NCBI RefSeq assembly: GCF_009177095.1
Contig: NZ_AP021861.1
Coordinates: 1,966,501 to 2,030,500 of the forward strand
DNA from: Lacipirellula parvula
GTDB lineage: Bacteria; Planctomycetota; Planctomycetia; Pirellulales; Lacipirellulaceae
Direction: 5' to 3'
Length of the DNA stretch: 64,000 bases
Part shown: positions 38,062 to 58,163 of the stretch, piece after piece
Layout: each line of letters begins with the position of its first letter
How positions within the stretch are numbered: position 1 is the stretch's first letter
The notes under the pieces: generated by a model
What the model was told of the DNA's origin: nothing
The model's database searches: none
Seen by the model: the letters and a program-made list of their open reading frames with translations, nothing else
Translations under genes and position numbers: made by a program

Positions 38062-39123
38062 CTACTCCGCCACGCGCCCCGTAGATTTCCGCACAATAAG
38101 GTCCGCTCCGACGCGGATCGTCGTCGGTGGGCTGTCGAACATCTCGCCATCGAGCCGGTCCAGGATCAATTGCGCGGCTCGGCGGCCGATCTCGCGCGGC
38201 CGTTGCCGCATCGTGGTGAGAGCCGGCCGCAGCGTGGCGGCAAAGTCGAGATCAGCGAAGCCGATGATCGACAAGTCGCGGGGAATCTCCAGCCCCAGTT
38301 CCGCGGCCGCTTCGTACAGGTAGAGCGCTTCGTGATCGGTGACCGCAAAGACGGCCGTAGGCCGCGGCGTTTGCGACAGGATCTCGCGGGCCACCTCGAG
38401 GCCGTCGGTGCCCCAGGGGTTGAGCCGGCGGCTCGTCACCTCGACGCCGCACAATTCCTCGACGGCTTGCTCAAAGCATTCGCGCCGACGCACTGCCCAT
38501 GCTTGCCACGCCGCTTCGCGCGACGAGAGGCAGGCGATTCGTTTGTGCCCCAGGCTGATGAGATGTTCGGCCACTGCCCGCGCGCTCGCCGCTTCGTCAG
38601 TTTCGATCGAGTCGGCGATCTGGTCTTCAGAATATTCGTGGTCGATCACCGCTACGGGAACTTTGCGTTCCAGCAACTCGCGGAAGTGGTCATAGTAAGC
38701 AACCGCGAACGACGGCCACAGAATGAGGCCGTCGACGCGACGATCGAGCAACCGGCTGATTTGCTTAAAGCCTTCGTCTTCGTCTTTTTCGAAGTGGGGC
38801 ATCTCCTGGCAATCGCCAACCCAGACCGTGATCGGCAGGTAGTCGGCTTGCGCAAGCACTAGATGAATGCCGGCGAGCACGTCGACCCAGAACGAATCGA
38901 ACGGCGGAATCATCACGCCAATCGTGCGGGTGCGGCCGGTTTGCATGCCGCTGACGAGCAGATTACGCCGCCAGCCAAGTTCTCGCGCCGCTTCGAGGAC
39001 GCGATCGCACGTTTCTTCGCCGAAGCGTTGCCGCTCGCCGCGCAGAATGCGCGACGCGGCGCTGAGCGAGACATTGGCCTTCGCCGCCACATCCTTCAAA
39101 CGCGGAACTTGCGAACTAGCCAT
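38062..39123 (-). CDS. LacI-family transcriptional regulator
   Basis: A 353-residue DNA-binding repressor. The N-terminal helix-turn-helix is canonical (LKDVAAKANVSLSAASRILRGE at about 9-30), with a hinge helix and a periplasmic-binding-protein-like sensor domain (TIGVMIPPF, DGLILWPS, VAVIDHEYS, GHKRIACLSS, PTAVFAVTDHEALYLYEAAAELGL, LSIIGFADLDFAATLRPALTTMRQ). The sugar is unknown; because the divergent neighbour is a GH130 mannoside phosphorylase, a mannose-containing ligand is the natural inference. The operator should lie in the 418-base region between them. Confidence 0.92.
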   Translation of the reverse strand: MASSQVPRLKDVAAKANVSLSAASRILRGERQRFGEETCDRVLEAARELGWRRNLLVSGMQTGRTRTIGVMIPPFDSFWVDVLAGIHLVLAQADYLPITVWVGDCQEMPHFEKDEDEGFKQISRLLDRRVDGLILWPSFAVAYYDHFRELLERKVPVAVIDHEYSEDQIADSIETDEAASARAVAEHLISLGHKRIACLSSREAAWQAWAVRRRECFEQAVEELCGVEVTSRRLNPWGTDGLEVAREILSQTPRPTAVFAVTDHEALYLYEAAAELGLEIPRDLSIIGFADLDFAATLRPALTTMRQRPREIGRRAAQLILDRLDGEMFDSPPTTIRVGADLIVRKSTGRVAE

Positions 39124-39541
39124 ATCTCATTCCCCTCCCTCGCAGGAGGGGCCAGGGGAGGGATTCCCGACCCGACTTTCAACTCGCGCGATCTGAACTG
39201 GCGAGCGGCTGCGATCGCAACCGCAGCTTGCCAACAAGCCGCAGTCGCACAACTACTTGCCAATTTTTGCCGGCAGAGCGACACCGCCAGCCTCTATTAT
39301 CTCGACCGCAGGCGCTAGCAGCAATCGCCAGTTTCCGTCGCTTCCGAATTTTCCGCTGTTAAACTAGTTGAACGATTCCGACCCCGTAGCTAAAGTTTAG
39401 ATTGGCGGCGACGAAGCCGCTGCGCGCCTCCCGCCCGGCAAGTGGGGCATCGCGAACGGGGCTCCTCCACGGGTTCCGACGCTGTTGCCGAGGACTGGGG
39501 CACGCCACCGGACTCTTCATCTTCCACAGGACTTTCCTCGG
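39124..39541. promoter_or_regulatory. 418-base divergent region, candidate regulatory region of the mannoside genes
   Basis: Lies between lacI-type and GH130 genes. It begins with a CCCTCCC / GGGGAGGG palindromic repeat at 39127-39162 of the same type as that at 9249. A LacI operator is a palindrome of about 14-18 bases with central CG; I could not pick one with confidence. AGGA at 39524 precedes the chosen GH130 ATG. Confidence 0.45.
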
Positions 39542-40609
39542 ATGGCCGACCAATTCTCTCCCGTCAACGCTGGCGGAACCGCCTTGGCTGCTCACAAGGG
39601 GCAGGCAACCAATCGCGGTAAGCTGGCAGCCGCGCCCGCCATGCCCTGGCAAGAGCGACCGGCCGGATCGAAAGACGTCGTCTGGCGCCATTCCGCAAAT
39701 CCTGTGATCGGCCGCCGCCCGCTGCCCGATGTGCTGGGCATCTACAACAGCGCTGTCATTCCGTTTGGCGACGGCTTCGCCGCAGTGTTTCGCCTGGAAG
39801 ACCGCACCCGATTCCCGCGGCTGCACATGGGCTGGAGCGACGACGGCCTACAGTGGCACATCGAGCCGACGCCGATCGTGTTCAAGAATCGCCCTGGCGA
39901 CGGCGACGAGGTCTCCGACTACGCCTACGACCCGCGCGTCGTGAAGATCGAAGACAAGTACTACATCACCTGGTGCGGCGGGACGAACGGCCCGACGATC
40001 AGCGTCGCCACGACGACCGACTTCCAAGAATTCACGCGGCTCGACAACGCCTTCCTGCCCCACAACCGCAACGGCGTGTTGTTCCCACGGCGGATCGACG
40101 GCAAGTATTTCATGCTGAGCCGTCCGAGCGACAACGGCCATACGCCGTTCGGCGACATCTACATTAGCCAAAGCCCGGATATGATCCACTGGGGCAAACA
40201 CCGCAAGGTGATGGGCCGCGGCGGTGATGAGCACGGTCTTTGGTGGGAGCGGACGAAGATCGGCGCCGGCCCCGTGCCGATCGAGATTGAAGACGGCTGG
40301 TTGATGATCTATCACGGCGTGATGGATACTTGCAACGGTTTCGTCTATCACATGGGCGCCGCGATTCTCGATCGCGACGAGCCGTGGAAGGTCGCCTACC
40401 GCTGTAGCAACATCCTGCTGGCGCCGGAGGCCGACTACGAAGTTTTCGGTCATGTGCCGAACGTCGTGTTCCCAGTGGCGGCGCTCTGCGATCAGGAGCA
40501 AGATCGGCTGGCCGTTTACTACGGCGCCGCCGATACCGTGACTTGCCTCTGCTACTCGCGGTTGAGCGAGTTGATCAGCTACATTAAGGAAAACTCGCTG
40601 GTCTTCTAG
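39542..40609 (+). CDS. GH130 family mannoside phosphorylase or hydrolase
   Basis: A 355-residue cytoplasmic five-bladed beta-propeller enzyme. GH130 proteins mostly phosphorolyse beta-1,4-mannosidic bonds, releasing mannose 1-phosphate. Visible features: FRLEDRTRFPRLHMGWSDDG, the general-acid region with Asp130 (YAYDPRVVKIEDKYYITW), RIDGKYFMLSRPS, and KIGAGPVPIEIEDGWLMIYHGV, which fits phosphorolytic subfamilies. No signal peptide in the chosen frame (ATG 39542; an alternative ATG at 39641 is also reasonable). The neighbours are a symporter downstream and a LacI regulator upstream. Confidence 0.88.
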   Translation: MADQFSPVNAGGTALAAHKGQATNRGKLAAAPAMPWQERPAGSKDVVWRHSANPVIGRRPLPDVLGIYNSAVIPFGDGFAAVFRLEDRTRFPRLHMGWSDDGLQWHIEPTPIVFKNRPGDGDEVSDYAYDPRVVKIEDKYYITWCGGTNGPTISVATTTDFQEFTRLDNAFLPHNRNGVLFPRRIDGKYFMLSRPSDNGHTPFGDIYISQSPDMIHWGKHRKVMGRGGDEHGLWWERTKIGAGPVPIEIEDGWLMIYHGVMDTCNGFVYHMGAAILDRDEPWKVAYRCSNILLAPEADYEVFGHVPNVVFPVAALCDQEQDRLAVYYGAADTVTCLCYSRLSELISYIKENSLVF

Positions 40610-40616
40610 TCGCAGC

Positions 40617-40702
40617 CCCGGCCTCTGCGCGGGGGGTAAGTCTGAGGTACGCTGTACGTTTTGCAGGGGTGACGCGACCCTCGGGCGGAGCCCGGGGCCA
40701 GT
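40617..40702. repeat. REPIN-like doublet of CCCCGG hairpins
   Basis: Hairpin 40617-40645 (CAGCCCCGGCCTCTGCGCGG) and inverted hairpin near 40679-40702 (CTCGGGCGGAGCCCGGGGCC) with a 35-base spacer. It separates GH130 from the symporter and covers the apparent upstream extension of the symporter reading frame. Confidence 0.7.
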
Positions 40703-40743
40703 GGAATTTCTCTTCGTTCGATCTCATCCGCGGGGCCGGGACT

Positions 40744-42657
40744 GTGCGCCTGCATCTGCTCGATATCTCCATCCTGCTCGGCTACTTCGTCGCCACGATT
40801 CTGATCGGGCTGTGGGTTTCGCGGCGCGGCAGCAAAGATCTCGACTCGTACTTCCTGGGCGGGAAATCGTTGCCCTGGTACGTGCTCGGCGTGTCGGACG
40901 CCTCGGGGATGTTCGATATCAGCGGCACGATGGTGATGGTCTTCTGGCTGTTCGTCTACGGCCTGAAAAGCATCTGGCTGCCGTTCGTGTGGCCGGTGTT
41001 CAATCAGGTCTTCCTGATGATGTTCCTCAGCGCCTGGCTCAGACGCTCGAACGTTCTTACCGGCGCCGAGTGGATTGAGTTTCGTTTCGGTCGCGGCTTA
41101 GGCGCCAACCTGGCTCACCTGAGCGTCGTGCTGTTCGCCGTGCTGAACGTCATCGGCATGCTCGCTTACGCGTTCAAAGGGATCGGCAAGTTTGCCGAAC
41201 GGATGTTGCCGTGGGACTTGCAGTCCACGCTCGCCGGCTGGGCGCCGTCGCTTTTGTCGACTGACCCCGCAGCGCTGCTCAACAACGAAAATCTCTACGC
41301 CCTCGTCATTCTGCTGCTCACGTCGCTTTACGCGATCAAGGGCGGCATGGTCAGCGTCGTCATCACCGAGGTGATGCAATTTTTCGTCCTGACGATCACC
41401 TCCGTCATCATCGGCATCACGGCGATCTACAAAGTTTCGCCGGAGATGATTCAAAAGGCCGTGCCCGAGGGCTGGTTGAGCCCGTTCTTCGGCTGGGAAC
41501 TGGGCCTCGATTGGAGCGGCCTACTGCAGCAGGCGAACGAGGTCATTGAGCAGGACGGGAATGAGTTGTTCGCCATCGCGTTCGGCCTGATGTTTTTCAA
41601 AGGCGTGCTCGCCAGTCTCGCGGGGCCGGCGCCCAACTACGACATGCAGCGGATCCTCGCCACGCGAACGCCGCGCGAGGCCTGCCTCATGAACGGCATG
41701 GTCAACCTCGTGCTCTACTTTCCGCGGTACATGATGATTACCGGCATCACGGTGCTGGCGGTTGCTTTCTCAATGGAAGAAATGCGATCGTTGAAGGCGG
41801 ACCAGTTTGAAGAGTTGCTGCCGATTGTGCTGACGCGGCACATCCCGGTTGGCGTCGTTGGCTTGCTGCTCGCGGGGCTGATAGCGGCGTTCATGTCGAA
41901 CTTCGCCGCCACGCTGAACGCCGCGCCGGCGTACATCGTGAACGACGTCTACAAGCGATTCATGAATCCCGATTGCACGCCACGCCGTGCGGTGACGCTG
42001 AGCCGCTTTGCGTCGATGGCCGTCCTGGCGATCGGCATCGGGTTCGGGCTGTTCACGACGCGCATCACCGACGTGATGATGTGGATCGTCGGCGCCCTCT
42101 ACACGGGCTACGTGATGGCCAACGTCCTGAAGTGGTATTGGTGGCGGTTCAACGGCTACGGCTACTTTTGGGGGATGGTGAGCGGCATCGGCGCCGCGAT
42201 GCTCGCGTCAAAAATCGCGAAGCTAGATGGCGTGGAGGCGTGGTTCGTCGAGCATATCGGCAACATGAACTCGCTTTACCTCATTCCGCCGATCTTGTTG
42301 GCTTCCGCGATTGGTTGCCTAGCGGGAACGCTGCTCACGCCGCCGGAAGACGAAGAGACGTTGCTCAACTTTTATGTGAAGACGCGACCATGGGGGGCGT
42401 GGGGGCCGATTCGCGAGCGGGCGATGGCGACGATTCCTGGCTTCGAGCCGAACCACGACTTTCGCATCAACATGTTCAACGTCGCGATCGGCATCGTCTG
42501 GCAGCTCTGCCTGACGGCGCTGCCGATCTACGTCGTGTTGCAGCAATGGAACTGGGCGATTCCCGTCGCGACGACGCTCGCGGTGACGAGCTTAACGCTC
42601 AAGTTCACCTGGTTCGACCGTCTGGAACACGATCCGCCGGCGGTTTGCACCGCCTAG
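40744..42657 (+). CDS. sodium:solute symporter (SSS family)
   Basis: A 637-residue inner-membrane transporter that imports a solute, likely a sugar, with sodium. About 13-14 hydrophobic segments are spread over the length. Family marks: DSYFLGGKSLPWYVLGVSD near the N-terminus, followed by the Na-binding region ASGMFDISGTMVM, then AEWIEFRFGRGLGANL and GLIAAFMSNFAATLNAAPAYIVNDVYKRF. GTG at 40744 (start RLHLLDISILLGYF) is chosen because the longer frame from 40669 runs through a repeat. The C-terminal hydrophilic part has LLTPPEDEETLLNFYVKTRPWG. Downstream of GH130, so it fits uptake of the phosphorylase substrate. Confidence 0.9.
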   Translation: MRLHLLDISILLGYFVATILIGLWVSRRGSKDLDSYFLGGKSLPWYVLGVSDASGMFDISGTMVMVFWLFVYGLKSIWLPFVWPVFNQVFLMMFLSAWLRRSNVLTGAEWIEFRFGRGLGANLAHLSVVLFAVLNVIGMLAYAFKGIGKFAERMLPWDLQSTLAGWAPSLLSTDPAALLNNENLYALVILLLTSLYAIKGGMVSVVITEVMQFFVLTITSVIIGITAIYKVSPEMIQKAVPEGWLSPFFGWELGLDWSGLLQQANEVIEQDGNELFAIAFGLMFFKGVLASLAGPAPNYDMQRILATRTPREACLMNGMVNLVLYFPRYMMITGITVLAVAFSMEEMRSLKADQFEELLPIVLTRHIPVGVVGLLLAGLIAAFMSNFAATLNAAPAYIVNDVYKRFMNPDCTPRRAVTLSRFASMAVLAIGIGFGLFTTRITDVMMWIVGALYTGYVMANVLKWYWWRFNGYGYFWGMVSGIGAAMLASKIAKLDGVEAWFVEHIGNMNSLYLIPPILLASAIGCLAGTLLTPPEDEETLLNFYVKTRPWGAWGPIRERAMATIPGFEPNHDFRINMFNVAIGIVWQLCLTALPIYVVLQQWNWAIPVATTLAVTSLTLKFTWFDRLEHDPPAVCTA

Positions 42658-42680
42658 CGTGCAGGCCGCTCGGAGATGGC

Positions 42681-42902: not shown

Positions 42903-43050
42903 GGCGCGGGTTCCTCGGGCACTATTGATTCGACTCTCGTCGGAGAGCTAATTCTCGTGACTAGTTCGCTGGTCACTTCGGCTCTCCATCAGCATTTACG
43001 AGTCAATCATCCTCTTGGATATTACAAACTGGAAAGACCTGGCTACGGGT

Positions 43051-43091
43051 TAACGCGAAAACCCTCGGAGCGACCGCAGTCGCCCCGAGGG
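43051..43091 (-). terminator. Rho-independent terminator after the chemoreceptor
   Basis: Read on the minus strand: CCCTCGG outer stem (7 bp), a two-base bulge on each side, a CGAC/GTCG inner stem and a CGCA-type tetraloop, followed by TTTTCGCG. Lies about 38 bases after the chemoreceptor stop. Confidence 0.7.
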
Positions 43092-43128
43092 CCGTTTGCT
43101 TCAGCAGTAGGTTTCTAGGCTGTTAAGC

Positions 43129-44715: not shown

Positions 44716-44799
44716 AGTAAATTCTCCCCCACGACGCCGGTTTAGGCGTCTTGAAAATAGATAGGAACAAGTCGTAGAAAGATCTCAACGGCAGGACGA

Positions 44800-45294
44800 C
44801 TAGGCCGCCGTCGTTTCGGCTTCGATCAGCGCTTCGACGCCGACCAACCGTCCAGTATCGAGCAGCATGACGATCCGCTCGCCCAACTTCCCCATGCCGG
44901 TGATGCAGGACGAATCACCGGAAGTCGCTAGTTCCGGCGGATCGGCGATCGAATCGTTCGGAATGTTGAGCACGTCCGACACGGTGTCGACGACGAGACC
45001 CACCACCCGATTGCCGACGTTCACTACGATGATGCAGGTGAACTGGTCGTATTCCTTCTCGGTCATCGCGAACCGAGCGCGAAGATCGATGATCGGCACT
45101 ACCGTGCCGCGGAGATTCATCACGCCGCGCACGAACGACGGAGCGTTCGGAATCGGCGTGATCTTCGAAAATCCTTTGATCTCCTGCACGCGAAGAATCT
45201 CGATTCCGTATTCTTCGTTCTGCAGGGTGAACGTCAGGAACTGGCCGTTCTCCGACGCCTTGTCTCCTCCCCCACTGTCTAGTTCTTGTCGCAT
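44800..45294 (-). CDS. cheW: chemotaxis coupling protein CheW
   Basis: Links chemoreceptors to the CheA kinase in the cytoplasm. The 164-residue protein has the CheW fold signatures LTFTLQNEEYGIEILRVQEIKG, then NAPSFVRGVMNLRGTVVPIIDLR near 48-70, and RVVGLVVDTVSDVLNI near 96-111. A 20-residue N-terminal Gly/Asp-rich tail precedes the domain. Probably co-transcribed with the chemoreceptor that follows it. Confidence 0.95.
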   Translation of the reverse strand: MRQELDSGGGDKASENGQFLTFTLQNEEYGIEILRVQEIKGFSKITPIPNAPSFVRGVMNLRGTVVPIIDLRARFAMTEKEYDQFTCIIVVNVGNRVVGLVVDTVSDVLNIPNDSIADPPELATSGDSSCITGMGKLGERIVMLLDTGRLVGVEALIEAETTAA

Positions 45295-45655
45295 TTCACC
45301 ATTCCCCTGGTTGACCGGAGTCGACGTTGTCGCGTTCGACGTCCGTACAATTGGCGAAACCGAATTCGCCCTGCTACGGACTACCCGTTCGACTCTACGG
45401 CAGTCCGCAAAGACTAGGTTGCGTCTGCATGAAGCAGGTCAAATCCGCCGTGCGGAGATGTGCGTCTTTAGGACTCTCGCTTTAGCTGCGGGACGTTGCC
45501 CCAGCGGCTGGCGGAAGGCCACGTGCAGAACTCGCAAAACCCGTGGAGCGAGGAGGCGACGTAGCCCGCAAGGCGGGTTTGTGCATTGCGAGTTGAGAGG
45601 CAACGCCGCGTGCTAAGGGGCCGCATGCTGAAGGAACGTTGTGAGCGCTTTCGGC
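45295..45655. other. 361-base intergenic region
   Basis: Lies upstream of cheW and downstream of the SLOG gene, all on the minus strand. A small CCCGC AAGG CGGG-type hairpin is present near 45568. No gene and no convincing promoter or riboswitch were found. Confidence 0.45.
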
Positions 45656-46258
45656 TTAGGAGCGGCGCTGCAGCAGAGTCCGGACGATGCGCCCCACGGC
45701 TGCCGCCGTAGAGGTGTACAGAACGTCGCGCTCGCCCAGGAGACGCCAATCGTCTGGTGCGGCTTCAGGCAACGGCTCGAGTAACGGATAAATATCGCCG
45801 GCGGCGCCGCCGCTTCGACCTACGGGAATCAACGCCGCGCCGTGCGCGGTGGCGACGGCTGCTTCGTGCTCCGTTCCCGGCCCTCCTTCGATCACCAAGT
45901 AGATCTGCGCCGCGCGCCCGAGGACTTCGCGACGCTGGTTGAAATCTTCGCCGGCTCCGAGCGTCGTGCCAGACCTTTGGAGTAACGTGCCGTGCGGAAG
46001 CAGATGGTAGAGATTCACGGGCAGCCCATTTGCTTTTCGAGCCGTCTCGTACGCTTCGGCGAATGTTTGCCCCACGCCATTCATGCCGCCGGTCAGGGCG
46101 ACCAATGGTTCGATCGCGGCCAGTTCGCCCGCGATTGCCTCGCACAGCGCAGGGCTGCCGGCATCCCAGAACTCCGTGCTGCCGATGACCGCGAGCCGCG
46201 GACCTGCGGCGAGACGTACGAGGGCTCGTTCAAGCTCTGATTCAATGCGAGGGTTCAC
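45656..46258 (-). CDS. SLOG-fold (TIGR00725-like) nucleotide-binding protein
   Basis: A 200-residue Rossmann-like protein. Supporting motifs: RLAVIGSTEF near 21-30, VALTGGMNGVGQTFAEAY near 52-69, and a PGTEHE-type motif (IEGGPGTEHEAAVA near 123-136), which is the SLOG/LOG-family phosphate-binding loop. Relatives include lysine decarboxylase-like proteins (LOG, cytokinin-activating) and sensors of nucleotide ligands in defence systems; this single-domain version has no fused effector. It sits between cheW and the GH5 gene, oriented with cheW, and its role in the locus is not evident. Confidence 0.75.
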   Translation of the reverse strand: MNPRIESELERALVRLAAGPRLAVIGSTEFWDAGSPALCEAIAGELAAIEPLVALTGGMNGVGQTFAEAYETARKANGLPVNLYHLLPHGTLLQRSGTTLGAGEDFNQRREVLGRAAQIYLVIEGGPGTEHEAAVATAHGAALIPVGRSGGAAGDIYPLLEPLPEAAPDDWRLLGERDVLYTSTAAAVGRIVRTLLQRRS

Positions 46259-46516
46259 GGCGGCGCTCCCGAGAAAATCGAGAAGTTGTTAGCGACCGGT
46301 ATCGAACTTCCGAGCGAAAATCGAAGCCTTCAGGCTCCGGCTCGGTGGTTTCTTCTCGGTTTTCTTGCTGAAAAGGGCAGCCTGCTTCGGTACGATTGCA
46401 ATCTGCTGCACGTCTTGATTTAACAAAAATTTTCTGACGGCAGCAGAACTCATCAGCGACCTCAGCATTCAGCGTCGCCGACCAGGCAAGCGACCACTCC
46501 AGCGGCATTCAACACC

Positions 46517-48421
46517 ATGCGATTTGCATTCGTCGCGAGCGCGACCTTTCTGACGATCTCGCTGCTGGCGGGAGCAGCGAGCGCTGAACTGAGCGGCTTT
46601 ATCACAGCTCGCGGCGACCAACTTTTTGACGGCGACAAGTCATTCCGATTCATCTCGTTCAACATACCGAATTTGCAGCTGATTGAGGACAACTTCGCGC
46701 CTGACGCCGAAACGGCCTGGGCGTGGCCGAACGAGTTTGAATTAAACGACGCCCTCGCCTCGGTGCGGCAACTGGGCGGAACGGTCGTGCGAACCTACGT
46801 CTTGAGCGTCCGCCGCGACGGTTCAGACATGGGCGATCATGTCTACCTCCGCGGGCCCGGTGAATTCAACGAGGAAGCATTCAAGTCGCTTGACCGCGCC
46901 CTCGAAGCGGCGAATCGTCACGGCGTGCGGCTGATCATCCCGCTCGTTGATAATTGGAAGTGGCAGGGAGGCATTGCCGAGTACGCCGCCTTTCGCGGGT
47001 TGCCTCCTGAAGCATTTTGGACCGACGAGCAAGTGATCGCCGATTTCGAAGCGACGATCCGGCACGTTCTCACCCGCATCAACTCCCGCACCGGCGTCGC
47101 ATACCGCGATGATCCGGCGATTCTCGGTTGGGAAACCGGCAATGAACTCGACGCCCCACCCGAGTGGACGGCGCGGATCGCGAAGTTCATCAAGTCGCTC
47201 GATCGCAACCATCTCGTTATCGACGGAGATTCGCTCCACGGCGTCCCCGAAGAATCGCTCGCCGATCCCAACATCGACGTCGTCACGACGCACCATTATC
47301 CGAACGTCGGCAACGGCGACTACGTCCTGCCGATTCGCGCCGCACGGGAGCAGGCGCGCGGCCGTAAGGCATACTTTGTCGGGGAGTTCGGTTTTATTCC
47401 AGCAGACAAAATCGCGCCTGTTTACGACGAGATCATCGCGAACGGCGCGAGCGGGGCCTTGCTCTGGAGCTTGCGGTTTCACCATCGAGACGGCGGATAC
47501 TATTGGCATTTCGAACCGTTAGGGGAGGGGATATATAAGGCTTATCACTGGCCTGGCTCGCCGACGGGCGATGACTACGACGAACGCGAAGTACTACGAC
47601 TGACGCGAGCAAAAGCGTTCGAGATCCGCGGCCTGCCGATCCCTCCGTTTGAAGCGCCGGAGGCTCCGGTGCTTTTGCCGATCGTCGACGTCGCGGCGAT
47701 CTCGTGGCGCGGCAGCGCTGGAGCTGCGACTAACGTCGTTGAACGTGCGACTAACTCAGCAGGTCCATGGACGCGTATCGCTGAGAGAGTGGACGATACT
47801 GCGGTGCAATACCGGCCGCTGTTTAGCGACGCCTCGGCTTCGCCGGGCCAGAACTACTATTACCGAGTGATCGCCAAGGGAAGCGGCGGCGAATCGCCGC
47901 CGTCAAACGTCGTTGGGCCCGTGGCCGTCAATCAGCGCACGCTTGTCGATGAAGCGCGCGACCTCAAGCTCATTGCGAAAGTCGACGGCGAGGTTGTTCC
48001 GGTGAGCGCCGACGCGCGGCGGCGCCGCGAAGACTGCTCGCGACTAAAGCTCGCGCCCGGCAGTCGCGTGACGTATCGAGTCGATGCGCCAATTAGTTCT
48101 TGGCAGGCGGAGTTCTTCTTGTTGGGCGCCGATGCGACCGCAACTCCGGTAGCGGCGGAATGGTCTGTCGATGGCGTGGAATTCAAGACGCTTCAAGCCG
48201 CCGCCGAACTTCGCGGGATAGGGCCGGCCGACGCCGATTACGGCTACTTACCGCGGCTTGAACTCTCTGTAGCGGCGATGCCTGCCGGAGCGAGATTCTT
48301 ACGCTTGGCCGCCGAGGCGGAGGTGGAGCTTGCTTGGCTGCAAATCCGTTATGGGAAGCGTGCTGAGCCAGCGATCGGGCCTGCCCAAACGTCCGCGGTA
48401 AAAAAACACGGTCGTCGGTAA
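46517..48421 (+). CDS. secreted GH5-type mannanase-like glycoside hydrolase
   Basis: A 634-residue secreted enzyme predicted to cut beta-1,4-mannan or a related glucan. Signal peptide residues 1-23 (cleavage near ASAE). Clan GH-A catalytic barrel at about 25-385: GRxY-type substrate residues (VRTYVLSV), acid/base Glu210 in GWETGNELDAPPEW, catalytic-site histidine TTHHYP near 258, and nucleophile Glu290 in YFVGEFGFI. A fibronectin-III-like module follows at about 390-470 and a beta-sandwich C-terminal module at about 480-625. The family (GH5, mannanase-type) is inferred from these motifs. It has no PEP-CTERM tail, so it is probably released. Confidence 0.82.
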   Translation: MRFAFVASATFLTISLLAGAASAELSGFITARGDQLFDGDKSFRFISFNIPNLQLIEDNFAPDAETAWAWPNEFELNDALASVRQLGGTVVRTYVLSVRRDGSDMGDHVYLRGPGEFNEEAFKSLDRALEAANRHGVRLIIPLVDNWKWQGGIAEYAAFRGLPPEAFWTDEQVIADFEATIRHVLTRINSRTGVAYRDDPAILGWETGNELDAPPEWTARIAKFIKSLDRNHLVIDGDSLHGVPEESLADPNIDVVTTHHYPNVGNGDYVLPIRAAREQARGRKAYFVGEFGFIPADKIAPVYDEIIANGASGALLWSLRFHHRDGGYYWHFEPLGEGIYKAYHWPGSPTGDDYDEREVLRLTRAKAFEIRGLPIPPFEAPEAPVLLPIVDVAAISWRGSAGAATNVVERATNSAGPWTRIAERVDDTAVQYRPLFSDASASPGQNYYYRVIAKGSGGESPPSNVVGPVAVNQRTLVDEARDLKLIAKVDGEVVPVSADARRRREDCSRLKLAPGSRVTYRVDAPISSWQAEFFLLGADATATPVAAEWSVDGVEFKTLQAAAELRGIGPADADYGYLPRLELSVAAMPAGARFLRLAAEAEVELAWLQIRYGKRAEPAIGPAQTSAVKKHGRR

Positions 48422-48786
48422 AATCTGGTAGACACGCCGCGACGAAGGCGGTAATATGCCGGCGTTCAACTATTTGAGCTAATTTCCTTGCGAACTGCTC
48501 AAGTATTTGAACGACCCAGGCACCTCTTCACTATTCGAACGTTACGGCAGGCAGCCCTTCGCTCGATCCCTTAAGTCGTGGTCGGTAGCTGCTGGCAAAT
48601 CTGCCGGCAGCGGTTAGCGAAGCTCGCAGCTTTCAGCGCGTTCGACGTCCCTTTTCGATTTGTATCGCGTCTTCGTCCGTGGACGGCGTTTCCGACGATC
48701 GTCGCTGCAAGCGTCGTTCTCGCGCGCCGTCGCTCATCGTGATCCCGCTTCTTGTGAGCTCTTTTCAATTTAGAGGGAGAAGTCTA
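48422..48786. other. 365-base upstream region of the PEP-CTERM operon
   Basis: Holds the likely promoter and leader of the following PEP-CTERM genes. A clear GAGGGAGAAG ribosome-binding site lies at 48772-48781. No sharp promoter and no structured RNA could be identified. Confidence 0.5.
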
Positions 48787-49533
48787 ATGCAATTGATTCC
48801 TCGTTGGACCTTGATCGCCGCACTGGCGGTCGCGTTGTTGCCGGCCGGAACATCGCTGGCTGGCAGTGCGCAGCTTTACTCGTGGGAAGCTGGCCTCGAA
48901 GGTTGGACCGCCGCGAACGCGACGCTCGCCAACTCGCCGACGCTCGGCGTGACCGACGGCGCCCAGTCGCTGTTGCTCGATAATCTCACCTCCGGCTTCA
49001 AAAACGACGTCGGCGTCGCGACGGTCGGTTCCGGCCCGGCGTTTGCGAGCTGGTCGCAAGCCGCCACGGCCTTTGCCGGCGGTGCGACCGATGTGAAGCT
49101 TGAATTCGATTTCAGCTGGGACAACACGAACGCGACGACTGACGGCTTTGCCCAGCTCGGCATGTTCCTCAACAGCACCACCGGCGGCTACACGCAGTAC
49201 GGCACCGGCGCGTTCATTCAAGGCAATTTGCTGAGCACGTTTCCGATCCTTGGCGCGCAGGCGACGATCGATGGCGTCACGCTCACTTCGATTGGCCAAA
49301 ATCGCGTCCACGTGGCCGTGCCGTTCGTTTCGGTGGGCGTCGGGCCCGGTTCGTTCTTCCAAATCGGTTTCAAGTCGAACGGCGGTTGGGGAGGCACGAC
49401 CGACTGGGCGATCGACAACATGAAGGTGACCAGCGCCGCGATTGGCGTCCCTGAGCCGAGCTCGGTACTGATTGCCGGGCTCGCGGCAACTGGCGTGGCC
49501 ACGGTGGTTCGTCGTCGTCGCCAGATCGCTTAA
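48787..49533 (+). CDS. PEP-CTERM secreted protein
   Basis: A 248-residue exported protein. Signal peptide at 1-26 (LIAALAVALLPAGTSLAG), a mature beta-rich domain of about 190 residues (LYSWEAGLEGWTA, VKLEFDFSWDNT, FFQIGFKSNGG), like a jelly-roll carbohydrate-binding fold, and a C-terminal PEP-CTERM sorting tail: VPEPSS, a hydrophobic helix VLIAGLAATGVATVV and RRRR. Exosortase should remove the tail and hand the protein to the cell envelope. ATG at 48787 follows a good ribosome-binding site. First gene of a cluster with the GH26 enzyme. Confidence 0.88.
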   Translation: MQLIPRWTLIAALAVALLPAGTSLAGSAQLYSWEAGLEGWTAANATLANSPTLGVTDGAQSLLLDNLTSGFKNDVGVATVGSGPAFASWSQAATAFAGGATDVKLEFDFSWDNTNATTDGFAQLGMFLNSTTGGYTQYGTGAFIQGNLLSTFPILGAQATIDGVTLTSIGQNRVHVAVPFVSVGVGPGSFFQIGFKSNGGWGGTTDWAIDNMKVTSAAIGVPEPSSVLIAGLAATGVATVVRRRRQIA

Positions 49534-49668
49534 CGAAGCCCTTGCTCTGAACAAGGCTTCTAAAACATCGCGCCGGTTGGCTCGTTTTCTTGGGCCAACC
49601 GGCGAATAAAAACTTTTCTCGAACGCAGGTTGCTCGAAACTCACGCAACGACGTAAGGAACGTTCACC

Positions 49669-51234
49669 ATGAAGAAAATGCGAACGCTGTTTCTGGCAGC
49701 TGCAGCTCCCTGCCTCCTTCCCGCCGCGACGCATGGAGCAACCGTGTTCCATCAACTAGCGGACTTCGAGAGCGGCGTTCCCGCCTTCTTCGCTCCGCAG
49801 AACGGCGCGATTCTTACGCAGTCGACGATCGGTGCGACGCACGGGACTTCGAGCCTGAGCGTTCAATTCACGGATACGCGTACGACCGATACCCGGCCGG
49901 ACCAGCACATTTACATGGCGATCGACGCGACGAACAACAATTTCGCCAAGTGGCAGGAGGCGGCGACGTTGCAGGTTACGACCAACCGCCAGTTCGCGCT
50001 TGCTTACGACATGTACCTCGATTTCGACGGCGGCTCGATTCCCGCCGGCGCCGACCTCTTTGCCTCCGACCTGCGCTACAACCAAGACCCCGATCCAGGC
50101 GCGGCCGTGCCGATTCCCGGCTTTCAGGATACCGGGGGCGAGTATGGTCTGCCGACGCGCTACAGCAGCGGGTTTCCGACCTCCGACCGGTTGATGCCGA
50201 TCGTGATTCCGTTCGACAAGGCCGACAATCCACGCAGCTTCTTTGTGAATCCGAATCCCAGCAACAGCTTTTATCAGCTTCAGCTGGGGCACAAGTACGG
50301 CCCGGTTGGTCTCGGCAGCTCGGCCAAGGTCTACTACGACAACTTCCGCATCCTCGAGTACAACACGCCGCAAACTAATGTCCTGTTTTCGTGGGAGACG
50401 CCCGATAACCCAGGCACGCCTGAGAACGAACAACTCGAAGGCTGGGGCTTGGGGGCAAGCGGCGCGCCCGGCCACAACCGCTCGATCACCGCGGTCGGCG
50501 CCACCGACGGCGCCTCGGCACTTCGCATCGGCACCGGACTCAACGGTTTCACTTGGGGGAGCCAGGTCACTTTCGGCAACCAGACGCAGGTGACGCAACT
50601 CGCCGATTCATTTAAGAAGGCGATCCGCGTCGAGGCCGACGTTACCTTCACCGGCGGCGGCGCCTCGACGACCTACTTCAGCTTCTTCATGCATATCTCC
50701 GGCGCCGGTCACTTCTATCAGTCGCCTGCCTCGCAGTTCAACGACATCCAGAACCTGGGCGTCGGCGAATCGAAGACGATCACGATTCAATTCAGCATGG
50801 ACGATTTCCGTGATGCGAACGGGACGCTGCGGCAGATCGGGCTCGATGGCGCCACCTCGCTCGCGGTCGGCATCGGCACGAACGAAGGCGCCCTCAACAA
50901 CGTGAACATTTCGGTCGACAAGCTGCGCGTCATCAGCGAGCAGGCGGTAGCCGTCGAGACGGGCGACTTCAACGACGACGGCATCGTCAACGGCGCCGAC
51001 TTTTTGATTTGGCAACGCGGTTTCGGCGCCGGCAGCGGGGCGTCGCTCGGGCAGGGCGACGGCAACGGCGACGGCGCCGTCAACAATCTCGACTTGGCGA
51101 TTTGGAAGGCCCAGTACGGTTCGCCCGGTTCGACGGTGACGGCTGCCGCCGTGCCGGAACCAGCGACGGCGCTGCTCGGAGCCGTTGCTATGCTCGGCGG
51201 CGCTGCATTGCGTGGCAAGACGCGGCGTTCGTAA
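49669..51234 (+). CDS. PEP-CTERM protein with two sandwich modules and a dockerin-like repeat
   Basis: A 521-residue exported protein without visible catalytic residues. Signal peptide 1-24 (cleavage near ATHGA). Two beta-sandwich modules: about 25-235 (FHQLADFESGVPAFF) and 240-420 (VLFSWETPDNPG, FGNQTQ), resembling carbohydrate-binding modules. At 432-484 lie two Ca-binding loops (GDFNDDGIVNGADFLIW, then GDGNGDGAVNNLDLAIW) like a type I dockerin. The PEP-CTERM tail starts at VPEPAT (495) and ends AALRGKTRRS. The same dockerin-like plus PEP-CTERM cassette ends the GH26 protein. Confidence 0.87.
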   Translation: MKKMRTLFLAAAAPCLLPAATHGATVFHQLADFESGVPAFFAPQNGAILTQSTIGATHGTSSLSVQFTDTRTTDTRPDQHIYMAIDATNNNFAKWQEAATLQVTTNRQFALAYDMYLDFDGGSIPAGADLFASDLRYNQDPDPGAAVPIPGFQDTGGEYGLPTRYSSGFPTSDRLMPIVIPFDKADNPRSFFVNPNPSNSFYQLQLGHKYGPVGLGSSAKVYYDNFRILEYNTPQTNVLFSWETPDNPGTPENEQLEGWGLGASGAPGHNRSITAVGATDGASALRIGTGLNGFTWGSQVTFGNQTQVTQLADSFKKAIRVEADVTFTGGGASTTYFSFFMHISGAGHFYQSPASQFNDIQNLGVGESKTITIQFSMDDFRDANGTLRQIGLDGATSLAVGIGTNEGALNNVNISVDKLRVISEQAVAVETGDFNDDGIVNGADFLIWQRGFGAGSGASLGQGDGNGDGAVNNLDLAIWKAQYGSPGSTVTAAAVPEPATALLGAVAMLGGAALRGKTRRS

Positions 51235-51317
51235 CGGAACAGCTTGCGGGGCGGCGAACGCGCACCGCAATGCTCGTCTGGATAATCTCAGCAGGAACGT
51301 GAGAGAGGGGAGGCCAC

Positions 51318-52418
51318 GTGGCGTTAAGCATTCAACTTGAACACCGCTCGCCGCGGCGGCGCGGATTCACGCTTGTCGAGTTGTTGGTAGTCATCGCGAT
51401 CATCGGCGTGCTCGTCGCGCTATTGCTGCCGGCGGTGCAGGCGGCGCGCGAAGCGGCGCGGCGCAGCCAATGTACGAACAACCTCCGCAACGTGGGGTTG
51501 GCCGTGTTGAATTACGCCGACGTCCGCGGCCGGATGCCCGCGGCGGCGACGTTTCTGCCGAAGGGGGAACTCAGTGCGAATCCCGCCCGCGACAACGGGC
51601 TGATGTTTAACTGGGCAATCGACATTCTGCCGTACATGGAACAGCAGGGGCTGCACAAGTCGTTCATCATTGATCCGGCGAACGACATCAAGCTGTTCAG
51701 CGACGAAAACAAGCTCGCCCGCGGTACCGAGATTCCCATCATGCTTTGCCCGAGCGACGGCGGGCAGGGGCAGCCGTTTCAAGGTTCGGGAGGAAACTGG
51801 GCCCGCGGCAACTACGGGCTGAACGCGATGCAGTGGTATCCCAATGCGTTCATGTGGCCCAACATGCAAACCGACCCCTTCTTCGACTTCAACATTGGCA
51901 TGGCCGGCTTCAGCAACGGCGTCATCAATCAAGGTCAGAAACTCGCCCAAATTACTGACGGTACGAGCAATACGATCATGCTCGCTGAGATGCGCGTCGG
52001 CCTTGGCGCCAGCGATCGTCGCGGCACGTGGGCGATGGGACTCTGCGCCTCAAACTACCACTGCCGACACGCTGGCTTCCCGCCGAACGCTTGCGGCGGC
52101 GCCGAAGACGACACGCAGGGCGTCGCCGACATCATCAAAGAGGTTGGCGAAGGAACGCTCAAAATGGAGTGCATGCTTCCCGACGCCAGCGTGCCGGATA
52201 GCGGCCAGTCGGTTGTTCGCAGTCGGCACCCAGGCGGCGCCCACGTTGCGATGGCTGACGGCAGCGCTCGCTTCATCAGCGACTTCATCGAGTATGTGCA
52301 GGTGAGCCTTGGCCCCAAGTTCGACGACACGGAGAACAAAACTTCCGAAAGCAAGTTCGTTGCTTGGCAACGGTTGAACGTCTCCCGCGATGGGATGACC
52401 GTGGGAGCAGCACAGTAA
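51318..52418 (+). CDS. DUF1559 prepilin-like protein
   Basis: A 366-residue pseudopilin-type protein very common in planctomycetes. The prepilin motif is RRGFTLVELLVVIAIIGVLVAL at about 14-35: a basic leader, processing before FTLVE with the conserved Glu at +5, then a hydrophobic helix. The C-terminal domain carries the family HPGGAHVAMADGSARFISD motif near 305-320. Its pilin-type helix probably places it in the envelope after cleavage by prepilin peptidase. It is 84 bases after the PEP-CTERM gene and 4 bases before the lipoprotein gene. Function is unknown. Confidence 0.92.
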   Translation: MALSIQLEHRSPRRRGFTLVELLVVIAIIGVLVALLLPAVQAAREAARRSQCTNNLRNVGLAVLNYADVRGRMPAAATFLPKGELSANPARDNGLMFNWAIDILPYMEQQGLHKSFIIDPANDIKLFSDENKLARGTEIPIMLCPSDGGQGQPFQGSGGNWARGNYGLNAMQWYPNAFMWPNMQTDPFFDFNIGMAGFSNGVINQGQKLAQITDGTSNTIMLAEMRVGLGASDRRGTWAMGLCASNYHCRHAGFPPNACGGAEDDTQGVADIIKEVGEGTLKMECMLPDASVPDSGQSVVRSRHPGGAHVAMADGSARFISDFIEYVQVSLGPKFDDTENKTSESKFVAWQRLNVSRDGMTVGAAQ

Positions 52419-52422
52419 CGGC

Positions 52423-52851
52423 ATGACACGCATGATTTCCAGGGACGCTTGGTGGGCGCTAGCATTGACCGCGCTAATCGGCTGCGGGTCGGCTAGCCCG
52501 TTCGACTATCAGCCTGCGTCGGGAAAAGTCACCTACGACGACGGCACGCCGATTTCGCCGAGCGGCTTCACCATTTACTTCTCGCCGCAAGTCGCCGCCA
52601 TCAACGCCGAGACCCATCCACGCGTGGCGAAGGCGATGGTCGACGCCAGCGGCAACTTTACCGAAACGACCAGCCATAAGTTCGGCGACGGATTGATTCC
52701 GGCCAAGCACAAGGTATTCCTCGATCTTAAACCGGCGAAAGGAGCGAAACCGTTAGTCGCCGCCGCGTACACTGACGTCGAGACGACGCCTCTGGAGGTC
52801 GACTCAACGGCCACCGATTTCTTAGAGATCAAAATCCCTCGCCCGCAGTAA
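52423..52851 (+). CDS. small lipoprotein downstream of the DUF1559 gene
   Basis: A 142-residue exported protein. The signal WALALTALIGC has a perfect lipobox (LIGC, Cys21), so it is predicted to be membrane-anchored by lipid. The mature domain (DYQPASGKVTYDDGTPISPSGFTIYFSP) has the Ig-like fold of the carboxypeptidase-regulatory-like type typical of planctomycete lipoproteins next to DUF1559 genes. It starts 4 bases after the DUF1559 stop and ends 30 bases before the GH26 gene, so it belongs to the same transcript. Confidence 0.85.
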   Translation: MTRMISRDAWWALALTALIGCGSASPFDYQPASGKVTYDDGTPISPSGFTIYFSPQVAAINAETHPRVAKAMVDASGNFTETTSHKFGDGLIPAKHKVFLDLKPAKGAKPLVAAAYTDVETTPLEVDSTATDFLEIKIPRPQ

Positions 52852-52881
52852 CTCTACCCACCCAGATCGAGCAGCGTCGAC

Positions 52882-54597
52882 GTGCGAACAGCGAACATCA
52901 TTGCCGGAGCGTTGGCGTTGGCGTTAGTGACCTGCCTCTCCGGCCGTCTCGACGCGCAGAACTATCGCTACGAGGCGGAATCGTCGCAGCGAACCGGCGT
53001 GCAGATGGTTAGCAGCATTCCAGGCTATTCGGGAACCGGTTACGTCACGGGCTTCGACAACACGTCTGACAAGGTGACGTGGCAGGTCGACGTGCCGAAC
53101 GGCCTCTACGAGATGTGGGTCGGCTACCGCTCGCAGTATGGCCAGAAGGGCTACGACTTCCATGTCGACGGCGAAGCCGGGAGCGGCATGTTCGATCAGT
53201 CGAACGTCTTCAAGGCCGATCGCGCCGGCCTGTTCAACCTCCAGAACCCGACGAACACGTTTTCTATTGAGTATGGCTGGGGCTACTACGATCTCGACTA
53301 CGTCGAGTTCCGGCCGTTCACGCCGCCGACGCTCGCGCCCGTCTCGCCGCAACTAGTCGACGAACAGGCAAACGCGCGGACCAAGTTTTTGATGAATTAT
53401 CTCACCGATATCTACGGCGAAAAAACGCTCTCCGGCCAACAGCACGAGGTGAGCCAGAACCTGTCGTTCCCGGGGCAGAGCTATCTCACCAAGTCAGGCG
53501 GCCTCGTCCCCGCGATCCGCGGCTCGGACTTCATCGAATACTCGCCGTCACGCCTGCAGTTTGGTTCGAACCCGCGCAACGAAACTGAGCAGACGATTGC
53601 TTGGGCTCAGCAAACGGGCGGCGTCGTTTCGATGATGTGGCATTGGAACGCGCCGGCCAACCTCATTAATCAATCGGGCGGCAAAGAATGGTGGCGCGGG
53701 TTCTACACCGATGCGACAACATTCAATCTACCGGGCGCGTTAGCAAATCCTGCCGGCAACGACTACCAGCTATTGCTCCGCGACATCGACGCGATCGCCG
53801 TTGAGTTGCAGAAGTTCGAAGACGCTGGCGTCCCGGTCATTTGGCGGCCCCTGCACGAAGCGCAGGGAGGCTGGTTCTGGTGGGGCGCTCACGGGCCGGA
53901 CACATTCAAGCAGCTTTGGAACCTCACCTACGATCGGCTCACTGAGTATCACGGCCTCCACAACCTGATTTGGGAATTTACTTCGTCGTCTGCGGAGGGA
54001 AACTTTCGCGACTGGTATCCCGGCGACGACGTCGTCGACATGATCGGTCTCGACATCTACACCGATCCCTCGGCGAGCATGAGCGGCCAGTGGTACGACC
54101 TTGTCCAAGAGTACAACGGCCGCAAGCTCATCGCCCTCTCGGAGACCGGCACGTTGCCGAACCCTGACGTGATGGACCAGTGGGGCATCGATTGGAGTTA
54201 CTTCTCCCCCTGGAGCGGATCATTCGTCAATGCATTCACGGCTCAACAACTTCAAGCAACGCTCGGACACGAAGACGTCATCACGCTCAACGAACTACCG
54301 ATGATGCCGTGGAATGCCGCTGCTCCGCAGAATGGCGATTTCAACGACGACGGCATCGTCGATGGCGCCGACTTGCTGCTCTGGCAGCGTGAGTTTGGGT
54401 CAAGTGGCGTGCTATCAGCCGACGGCAACGGCGATGGGGCCGTCGACGCCGACGACTTAGCAATTTGGCGCCAACAGTTCGGCCAGTCGGCCGGCGGGGC
54501 AGGGGGACAAGCGACTGTCCCCGAGCCGGCGACTGCCGTGTTGGGCGGCGTTTTCGGTGTTGCGTTTGGCTTTTGCAGCCGCCGATCGAGACGCTAG
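52882..54597 (+). CDS. secreted GH26 beta-mannanase with CBM, dockerin-like repeat and PEP-CTERM tail
   Basis: A 571-residue extracellular enzyme predicted to cut beta-1,4-mannan. Signal peptide 1-25 (GTG start at 52882). N-terminal CBM6/CBM35-like module at about 26-146 (YRYEAESSQRTG, VTWQVDVPNGLYEMWVGY). The GH26 barrel at about 155-480 has acid/base Glu326 in WRPLHEAQGGWFWW and nucleophile Glu421 in ALSETGTLP. The dockerin-like repeat at 485-535 (GDFNDDGIVDGADLLLW, DGNGDGAVDADDLAIW) precedes the PEP-CTERM tail at 547-571 (VPEPAT...FCSRRSRR). Last gene of the cluster that begins at 48787. The clear catalytic pair makes the mannanase assignment strong. Confidence 0.92.
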   Translation: MRTANIIAGALALALVTCLSGRLDAQNYRYEAESSQRTGVQMVSSIPGYSGTGYVTGFDNTSDKVTWQVDVPNGLYEMWVGYRSQYGQKGYDFHVDGEAGSGMFDQSNVFKADRAGLFNLQNPTNTFSIEYGWGYYDLDYVEFRPFTPPTLAPVSPQLVDEQANARTKFLMNYLTDIYGEKTLSGQQHEVSQNLSFPGQSYLTKSGGLVPAIRGSDFIEYSPSRLQFGSNPRNETEQTIAWAQQTGGVVSMMWHWNAPANLINQSGGKEWWRGFYTDATTFNLPGALANPAGNDYQLLLRDIDAIAVELQKFEDAGVPVIWRPLHEAQGGWFWWGAHGPDTFKQLWNLTYDRLTEYHGLHNLIWEFTSSSAEGNFRDWYPGDDVVDMIGLDIYTDPSASMSGQWYDLVQEYNGRKLIALSETGTLPNPDVMDQWGIDWSYFSPWSGSFVNAFTAQQLQATLGHEDVITLNELPMMPWNAAAPQNGDFNDDGIVDGADLLLWQREFGSSGVLSADGNGDGAVDADDLAIWRQQFGQSAGGAGGQATVPEPATAVLGGVFGVAFGFCSRRSRR

Positions 54598-57071: not shown

Positions 57072-58163
57072 CTAACTATTCCGCACGCGCACGGCGTCGG
57101 CGATCACGTAGCCCGTGCCGGAAGTCCAGCGGCTGACGCCGACGACGTTGTAATCGCCCGCGGCGAGGTTAAACGTGCCGATGTTTCGCCACGAACCGCC
57201 GTTGGTCGTTTGGTTGACGGCCACCGTCTGATTGCCGCTGGAAGTGGCGACGATGTACGGCGTCGACGTGTTGTAGCCCGGGTCCGCCGGATACCAGACG
57301 TCGACCATGTAGTTGCCGGCGCTGGGAATATTTACCTTGAACCACGCCGTATCGCTGGCGAGGACAGGATTTGCGTAGCGGTAGTCCGCCCCGTTCTTCT
57401 GGCTCGACCAACTCGACGTGAGCCAGTTGGCGCTCGCAGTGAAACGTCCGGCAGTCGCGTTGTCGACTACCGTGCTATAGTTTCCGCCCGCGAGCACAGC
57501 CGCCACATCCGAGCGTAGCCCCGGCAGCATGCCGTAGAGAATGTTCCCCGGGCAGGCGGTCGCCATGAAGTCGCGGTGGCCGAAAATTTGCGTTGCCGGT
57601 AGGCCGTATTGGTCGCAAATGTATGCGCACAAATTAACGAGCTTGTCGTAGAGCGCGGTCGGCGGCGTCGCCGTCGTGTAGAGCCCTTCGTTCTCGATGC
57701 CGATGGCCTCGTTGTTGACGTTGCCCGCGCCGACATGGGCGCCGCGGACGAAACTGGTGCCGAGATTCAACCGCTCGAGACTGCGATGGCGGCCTTCCAT
57801 CGCATAGCCGCCGCGGCTCACGGTAAACTGTTGCCCGGTATCGATCCAGCCGTTGCTATCCATGTGATAGTTCTGAATTGAACGCGCGAGCGAGTAGGCG
57901 GCGGCTTGCGTCGTGGCGGTCGTGTTCGAGGTCGCGGTGTGGTGAATGACGATGTACGACGGCTTGTAGCTCAGCACGCTGACCGCTGAACTCGCTGCGC
58001 GGGCGCCCCATGCGCTCGTACTGGCAATGCTGGGGTTTGGAACGGCCGCCAGCGCGGGCGTCGCCCGCAGCAGTTCCATGCCGCCGACCGCCGCCGCCGT
58101 GCCGAGCGTTACGGCGCCGCGCATCATGTCGCGACGGCTCATCGAACGATTGCACATACACAT
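57072..58163 (-). CDS. Tat-exported PGRP-type N-acetylmuramoyl-L-alanine amidase
   Basis: A 363-residue exported amidase that cuts peptidoglycan between muramic acid and L-alanine. Its N-terminus carries a twin-arginine signal (SRRDMM at 9-14, then GAVTLGTAAAVGG). The PGRP/amidase_2 domain at about 45-215 shows IVIHHTATS (His74/His75), IFGHRDFMATACPG with His196 and Cys204 spaced as in T7 lysozyme, the three zinc ligands. The C-terminal module at about 235-363 (VVDNATAGRFT, YNVVGVSRWTSGTGYVIADAVRV) matches the golvesin-C type carbohydrate-binding fold, which is frequent in actinobacteria. The start may be ATG 58163. Confidence 0.9.
   Translation of the reverse strand: MCMCNRSMSRRDMMRGAVTLGTAAAVGGMELLRATPALAAVPNPSIASTSAWGARAASSAVSVLSYKPSYIVIHHTATSNTTATTQAAAYSLARSIQNYHMDSNGWIDTGQQFTVSRGGYAMEGRHRSLERLNLGTSFVRGAHVGAGNVNNEAIGIENEGLYTTATPPTALYDKLVNLCAYICDQYGLPATQIFGHRDFMATACPGNILYGMLPGLRSDVAAVLAGGNYSTVVDNATAGRFTASANWLTSSWSSQKNGADYRYANPVLASDTAWFKVNIPSAGNYMVDVWYPADPGYNTSTPYIVATSSGNQTVAVNQTTNGGSWRNIGTFNLAAGDYNVVGVSRWTSGTGYVIADAVRVRNS

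Follow-up and report, generated by a model that had tools for sequence, protein, structure and literature searches.

A dockerin and PEP-CTERM cassette as a putative surface address for secreted proteins of Lacipirellula parvula

The stretch of Lacipirellula parvula DNA analysed here (64,000 nucleotides, positions 1,966,501 to 2,030,500 of NZ_AP021861.1; hereafter the window) encodes a mannanase whose tail joins two modules of different reputation, a dockerin and a PEP-CTERM signal. The first-pass annotation of this DNA proposed that the two act together, as a calcium-binding spacer and a sorting signal, to display mannan-binding and mannan-cutting proteins on the surface. To our knowledge, dockerins outside cellulosomes have no settled function, and the question raised by this locus is what a dockerin does directly in front of a PEP-CTERM tail.

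The mannanase described in that annotation as ending in a dockerin-like repeat and a PEP-CTERM tail was borne out by Pfam and by sequence as a CBM35-GH26-dockerin-PEP-CTERM protein, with the last two modules occupying its final ~90 residues (Table 1). Its nearest named relative is a protein of Lacipirellula limnantheis I41 (82% identity), and among solved structures the GH26 mannanase 3zm8 comes closest (E 5.5e-103). The alignment to 3zm8 covers CBM35 and GH26 (residues 29–472) and ends before the dockerin and PEP-CTERM. In it, RPLHEA and LSETG of the Lacipirellula protein face RPLHEA and AAEVG of 3zm8, motifs that we take to hold the catalytic Glu pair of GH26, and Pfam and the 3zm8 alignment place both in the GH26 domain. 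Dockerin_1 was matched at residues 485–528 (E 1e-6; 29.2 bits against a cut-off of 22.9). The structure model of the cassette reached a pLDDT of 91–95 over blocks 11–60, the dockerin, with helices at 23–32 and 51–60, and was of low confidence over the PEP-CTERM helix; two predicted calcium-loop-helix repeats with the dockerin fold, together with the passed Pfam cut-off, point to a type I dockerin. The second of these loops, previously given as GDGNGDGAV, reads ADGNGDGAVDADD instead. Among solved structures, the dockerin 2y3n was the best match of the window dockerin both by sequence (E 3e-6) and by fold (Foldseek E 3e-4; VIA Z 9.0, rmsd 1.5, 55 residues aligned). The dockerin identity goes beyond chance, since solved dockerins top both comparisons and the cassette recurs more than 100 times in the genome.

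The PEP-CTERM match of the GH26 protein (residues 545–568) scored 15.2 bits, under the Pfam cut-off of 20.7, as did that of the protein at 49669 (residues 494–519, 17.1 bits), and the NCBIfam model TIGR02595 had no match in either protein at E ≤ 1. By sequence, both carry the full form, namely VPEP, a hydrophobic stretch and an Arg-rich end at the stop codon. With a Dockerin_1 match at residues 432–480 (E 1.2e-7; 32.2 bits against 22.9), the 49669 protein ends in the same cassette as the GH26 protein, as had been claimed. A mannan-binding role for it is not supported: what bears on it is the gene neighbourhood and a single SGBP match that is weak, at 19.7 bits under the Pfam cut-off of 26.4. 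The Pfam scan found no enzyme domain in 49669–51234, and its structure model, built from six sequences, had a mean pLDDT of 46.7.

Table 1 Features of the window that bear on the cassette (positions within the window)
Feature	Position	Strand	Basis
LacI-family regulator	38062..39123	-	family match
GH130 beta-1,4-mannooligosaccharide phosphorylase	39485..40609	+	E 1.7e-70
Sodium:solute symporter	40669..42657	+	family match
GH5-type glycoside hydrolase	46517..48421	+	PF00150 E 3.6e-7
PEP-CTERM protein lacking a dockerin; related to the N-terminal region of the proteins like 49669 in L255 and L262	48679..49533	+	Pfam, comparison
Secreted protein without enzyme domain, same dockerin-PEP-CTERM cassette	49669..51234	+	ORF and Pfam
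49669 dockerin, WQR unit first, WKA unit second	50962..51108	+	Pfam and unit pattern
49669 PEP-CTERM	51148..51225	+	Pfam 17.1 bits, below cut-off
DUF1559 prepilin-like protein, syntenic with GH26	51318..52418	+	Pfam, synteny
Small protein, LIGCGS start, syntenic	52423..52851	+	ORF, synteny; no Pfam match
CBM35-GH26 beta-mannanase with dockerin and PEP-CTERM tail (571 aa, GTG start)	52882..54597	+	Pfam and 3zm8 alignment
CBM35 domain, residues 29-145	52966..53316	+	Pfam E 2.1e-22
GH26 catalytic domain, residues 159-457	53356..54252	+	Pfam E 3.3e-74; 3zm8 alignment
GH26-protein dockerin, two calcium loops and two helices	54334..54468	+	Pfam, structure model, sequence and fold matches
GH26-protein dockerin unit 1, WQR type, DFNDDGIVDGADLLLWQR	54337..54390	+	own unit pattern
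GH26-protein dockerin unit 2, partner type, DGNGDGAVDADDLAIWRQ	54421..54474	+	own unit pattern
GH26-protein PEP-CTERM: VPEPAT, hydrophobic stretch, Arg-rich end	54514..54585	+	Pfam 15.2 bits, below cut-off

From its gene content, the region 38062–54597 plausibly reads as a cluster for mannan use, made up of a LacI regulator, GH130, a symporter, GH5, two secreted non-enzyme proteins, a DUF1559 protein, a small lipoprotein-like protein and GH26. The LIGCGS start of the small protein is presumably lipobox-like. Synteny is partly kept in other genera: of eight related loci, six have the DUF1559 and small-protein genes just upstream of GH26 (in L254 and L255 a further cassette gene lies between them and GH26), and four have a GH5 gene near GH26. 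Elsewhere in the window, on the reverse strand at 57072–58163, lies a protein with Amidase_2 and Golvesin_C domains and, by eye, a twin-Arg-like start.

The cassette extends far beyond this cluster. The genome, one contig (C1) of 6.92 Mb, held 379 dockerin candidates, 150 of which were scored; the 150 matches fell into 142 frames by stop codon, and two of these frames form one ORF, giving 141 dockerin ORFs, a lower bound, with further cassette matches outside the scored 150 (for example at C1:4191785 and C1:5288491). When PEP-CTERM, LExR and unit types were assigned by our own sequence patterns, a PEP-CTERM form ended 115 of the 141. The cargo was scanned in 60 PEP-CTERM ORFs, drawn at random from the 87 of up to 720 aa among the 110 with a full upstream frame; at E ≤ 0.001, Pfam found Dockerin_1 in 53 of them and PEP-CTERM in 19. 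Proteases, GH16, GH18, GH25, GH26, cytochrome peroxidase, lipases and an endonuclease were present, each in one or two of the 60. Because this cargo is diverse and unrelated, the cassette is a general tag and is not specific for mannan, and the display idea loses its mannan device to a genome-wide tag.

Of the dockerin ORFs, 26 lack PEP-CTERM, and most of these encode long proteins bearing an LExR extracellular signal. A basic N-terminus with LExR was found in 22 of the 26 by a strict pattern and in three more by eye, and in none of the 115 PEP-CTERM dockerin ORFs. Planc_extracel was the best Pfam match in all five LExR N-termini scanned, above the cut-off in two. By eye, most LExR dockerin proteins (for example C1:5409194, C1:2181466 and C1:5664020) have an acidic or Ala-rich tail of 76–183 residues, near the end of which a D-x-AFA or AAGDF-like motif recurs, possibly a separate sorting signal.

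The sorting half of the display idea fared better. One exosortase match was found in the genome (C1:390624-391388, E 9.9e-56), scoring 121.7 bits against a TIGR02602 cut-off of 105.55 and containing ACSGLR, NVIRI and VHHW, which we take to be the catalytic motifs of exosortase. As had been suggested for a search, it lies among polysaccharide genes: the exosortase (L174:9556-10515) is flanked by an AAA_31/ParA-type P-loop ATPase gene (L174:6964-9273) and, on the other side, by a Poly_export gene (Wza-type, PF02563; L174:11248-12303). An exosortase gene, tails of PEP/hydrophobic/basic form and polysaccharide genes nearby point to a PEP-CTERM/exosortase system, and exosortase sorting of the cassette proteins is likely from these sequences. 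With the exosortase present and the dockerins mostly joined to PEP-CTERM, neither of the two findings named beforehand as speaking against the display idea, a genome lacking exosortase or a repeat mostly without PEP-CTERM and with cohesins, was obtained.

Whether the dockerin itself carries information was judged from its two units, numbered from the first calcium ligand, D1. A typical dockerin of this genome has one fixed unit, with G10, F13, L14, W16, Q17 and R18 in its helix, and one partner unit, with L13, W16 and K/R17; we take positions 10, 11, 17 and 18 to be the classical cohesin-recognition positions of dockerins. After 14 of the 150 matches that were off the two-unit pattern had been dropped, exactly one Q17 unit (WQ helix) was present in 111 of the 128 dockerin ORFs with two recognisable units, against a mean of 64.0 when partners were shuffled (sd 5.7, maximum 89 in 20,000 trials), a figure that is no strict probability because paralogs are not independent. 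Among the 17 exceptions, six had two Q17 units and 11 had none, and no WQR/WQR pair occurred among the 128. The order of the units is free: of the 111, 59 begin with the Q unit and 52 end with it. Position 2 tracks the place, being F in the first unit and A in the second, and positions 10, 13, 14, 17 and 18 track the unit type, not the place. At these five code positions, unit-to-unit identity was 0.10 over 136 dockerins of this genome, compared with 0.30 for shuffled partners (lowest of 2,000, 0.213) and 0.42 for 21 dockerins of other planctomycete families, where eight of 29 loci gave no pair. The rule is obeyed by 19 of the 22 non-PEP-CTERM ORFs with two units (Q unit first in 17). The code is thus common to two classes whose export signals differ.

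In L216 (genome G142), a protein from outside the family Lacipirellulaceae, a dockerin with near-identical repeats, DLIDLSTLAT and DLIDLSILAT, is joined to PEP-CTERM, and the dockerin and PEP-CTERM combination therefore exists there without the anti-symmetric code.

These observations bear on two simpler accounts of the dockerin. It might do no more than act as a calcium-stabilised spacer, leaving the exosortase site within reach or distancing the cargo from the membrane, as the calcium-loop residues conserved among the 128 dockerins and the fairly constant distance from dockerin match to PEP motif (median 16 residues, range 6–88, in 113 measured frames) would allow. A spacer, however, needs no pair of WQR and partner helices in either order, and by itself fails to explain an anti-symmetric, order-free helix code, which is kept even by dockerins that have no PEP-CTERM behind them. 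PEP-CTERM tails also exist without dockerins: at least 150 matches exceeded the cut-off (150 scored of 326 candidates), and the 30 strongest loci had dockerin units near the tail in nine, none in 19 (one of which, L045, was read at an untypical tail) and could not be read in two; the window itself contains such a protein at 48679–49533. We consider the spacer account rather unlikely. The other account is that the cassettes bind each other, WQR helix to partner helix, and build up a lattice of surface proteins that needs no cohesin. Such pairing would call for the pattern seen here, one helix of each type per dockerin regardless of order, and the lack of a general cohesin fits this account, yet the partner helix, with an entropy of 3.2 bits at position 18, is more variable than a mutual interface suggests, making this unlikely. 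Alternatively, the role of the fixed helix could lie in how the two helices pack together, with no partner involved.

An ordinary cohesin would be the expected partner, and the search for one did not come back quite empty. The sole cohesin-bearing ORF, C1:6326604-6338621 (L175:605-12622, reverse strand; 4005 aa), is mostly beta-helix and has two cohesin-like stretches, one match above the cut-off and one below. Its start is of LEER type, and the dockerin at its C-terminus contains a WQR unit. By eye, a further dockerin-like stretch lies between the two cohesin-like ones. That the cassettes dock on this giant ORF in the usual cohesin-dockerin manner is very improbable: the two stretches face at least 141 dockerin ORFs, the whole-ORF hmmscan did not list the cohesin, and in the family a cohesin match at E ≤ 0.01 was found in only eight of 43 genomes (four of the 28 of good quality), against a cassette in all 24 of the genomes searched for it. 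No cellulosome-type scaffoldin with several cohesins was found in the genome by PF00963, a search that more divergent cohesins could escape. Cohesin as the general partner was rejected on its distribution in this genome and the family. Exosortase was present in 42 of the 43 family genomes and in all 28 good-quality ones.

A survey of 195 genomes of the phylum found cohesin matches in 33, exosortase in 89 and dockerins in 92, the dockerin matches being scored for at most 31 per genome and tallied by hand from the listed rows. Of 40 genomes with at least 12 dockerin matches, 24 had exosortase and 16 did not; cohesin was matched in seven of the former and 14 of the latter. This suggests that exosortase and cohesin are two alternative ways to hold dockerin proteins, which is only a lead because 12 of the 16 exosortase-free genomes belong to one family.

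The shared code might also reflect descent without function, the cassette having spread by duplication and the code being a frozen accident of the ancestral copy. Phe codons at the fixed position (79 TTC to 28 TTT, 0.74 TTC) were close to the background of 0.78 to 0.22, and the fixed Leu and Arg residues were spread over many synonymous codons, near the background of the same genes; some departure was seen for Q17 (CAG 0.63 against 0.52) and D12 (GAC 0.77 against 0.64). The median nucleotide identity between Q units was 0.70. Because synonymous codons are near background, the copies look old and their fixed residues look kept by selection, and recent duplication was rejected as the cause of the shared code; the codons speak against conversion as well. 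A family-restricted cassette with genus-wise motifs is also expected under descent alone, but the codon spread and the divergence of the Q units speak against it, as does the orthologous GH26 tail, which differs in code along with its genome; we regard descent alone as quite improbable.

The genus-wise difference was read from the family. All 24 family genomes, our own included, gave a match to the cassette region, and none of 15 genomes from the order's other families did. Two further single-contig genomes of the family, G216 and G209, from each of which 35 loci were taken, have AADYTVWRD as the fixed unit. Exactly one WRD unit was found in 24 of 34 unit pairs in G216 and 26 of 32 in G209, none in ten and six pairs, respectively, and WRD in both units in none. 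Thirty further loci were picked through matches to a GH26 query and are hence biased; 29 gave a pair (L235 gave none), with WQ(R) in g1, g145, g147, g149, g152 and g156, WRD in g144, g146 and g155, and WRS/WRN in g154. WRD in both units was seen in two G213 cassettes (L353, L354) and in the GH26 protein of G204 (L227). Across ten genomes, our own included, the tail of the orthologous GH26 protein follows the motif of the genome it is in, with WQ forms in g1 and g149 and WR/WRD forms in g154, g153 and g148; the fixed unit takes either place. In L250 and L251, the positional orthologs of the 49669 protein show the two units in reverse order compared with the window.

Outside the family, the CBM35-GH26 core is followed by other tails. 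In the eight of 14 such GH26 loci that were scanned with Pfam, the core ends in Por_Secre_tail (T9SS) in proteins of KSB1, Cyclobacteriaceae and Hymenobacter (L257, L258 and L259, the last at 26.4 bits, just under the cut-off of 27), in SLH domains in Paenibacillus (L263) and in a sub-threshold dockerin in Oscillospiraceae (L266). Pfam named no tail family in L256, L260 and L265; L256, a Phycisphaerae MAG, has repeats and a PEP-CTERM-like end by eye. This exchange of tails supports the view that the cassette would be the lineage's own surface address.

We therefore propose, with a probability of roughly 0.5, that the cassette is a two-step surface address in which exosortase sorting is followed by docking of the dockerin on a shared partner. 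From known exosortase biology, the protein would first be exported by Sec and retained in the membrane by its PEP-CTERM helix, which exosortase would then cut off, handing the protein to the envelope or exopolysaccharide. Left at the C-terminal end or very close to it, the dockerin would then dock on a partner common to more than 100 cargoes, two of them the GH26 mannanase and the 49669 protein. This partner would read a helix that is fixed, in this genus as DGADFLxWQR, together with a variable one (xxADLxxWK/R), and either unit order would work because a dockerin is nearly two-fold symmetric. The putative partner would be no recognisable cohesin, and its code would change between genera with the dockerins following. 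We infer cleavage, location and the existence and nature of the partner from these patterns; no partner of the dockerins was found in this analysis, and we favour viewing the dockerin as a module that recognises a putative shared partner other than a detectable cohesin. A wider reading is possible, with the odds somewhat against it: that the Lacipirellulaceae have a cohesin-free dockerin system in which more than 100 secreted proteins per genome, brought out by exosortase or the LExR route, would be held by one putative surface partner that reads a two-helix, order-free code, partner and clients changing the code together between genera. With one dominant code per genome, more than 100 candidate clients, a code that differs naturally from one related genus to another, and an exosortase, the family is a clean test case. 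If found, the partner would offer surface display a new binding pair and account for the arrangement of secreted enzymes in these planctomycetes.

In the literature searched, which excluded subscription papers and preprints, we found no report of a dockerin with PEP-CTERM, in planctomycetes or elsewhere; dockerin and exosortase both occur in PMC5244752, on methane-oxidising archaea, and are treated apart in the portion of that paper cited here. The NCBIfam family NF041540 (GC-type dockerin domain-anchored proteins) also treats the dockerin as an anchor in its name, and the two window dockerins match it weakly (21.5 and 14.8 bits), below its cut-off of 29. The nearest published idea is the cohesin-based 'planctosome' of freshwater Nemodlikiaceae (PMC6461901), which likewise concerns planctomycete dockerins outside cellulose degradation and differs in being built on cohesins and peptidases, PEP-CTERM going unmentioned in the cited part of the text. 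The dockerin of Bacteroides (Pseudobacteroides) cellulosolvens, DocCel48 (2y3n), resembles those described here in its two calcium loops, paired helices and more than 100 carriers per genome. According to the section of PMC8063739 that deals with it, that organism combines more than 200 components bearing dockerins with 78 cohesins, and its dockerin is symmetric and dual-binding, whereas Lacipirellula has two cohesin-like stretches, anti-symmetric repeats and a PEP-CTERM behind the dockerin. The likeness to the PEP-CTERM/exosortase system of Haft et al. (2006) lies in the PEP motif, hydrophobic stretch, basic end, exosortase homolog and polysaccharide genes, and that system was already known from Planctomycetes (PMC1569441). 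By the figures quoted from that source, PEP-CTERM proteins number a median of eight per genome and 65 in Verrucomicrobium spinosum; against these stand at least 150 PEP-CTERM matches in Lacipirellula and a dockerin directly before the PEP-CTERM in 115 of 141 dockerin ORFs.
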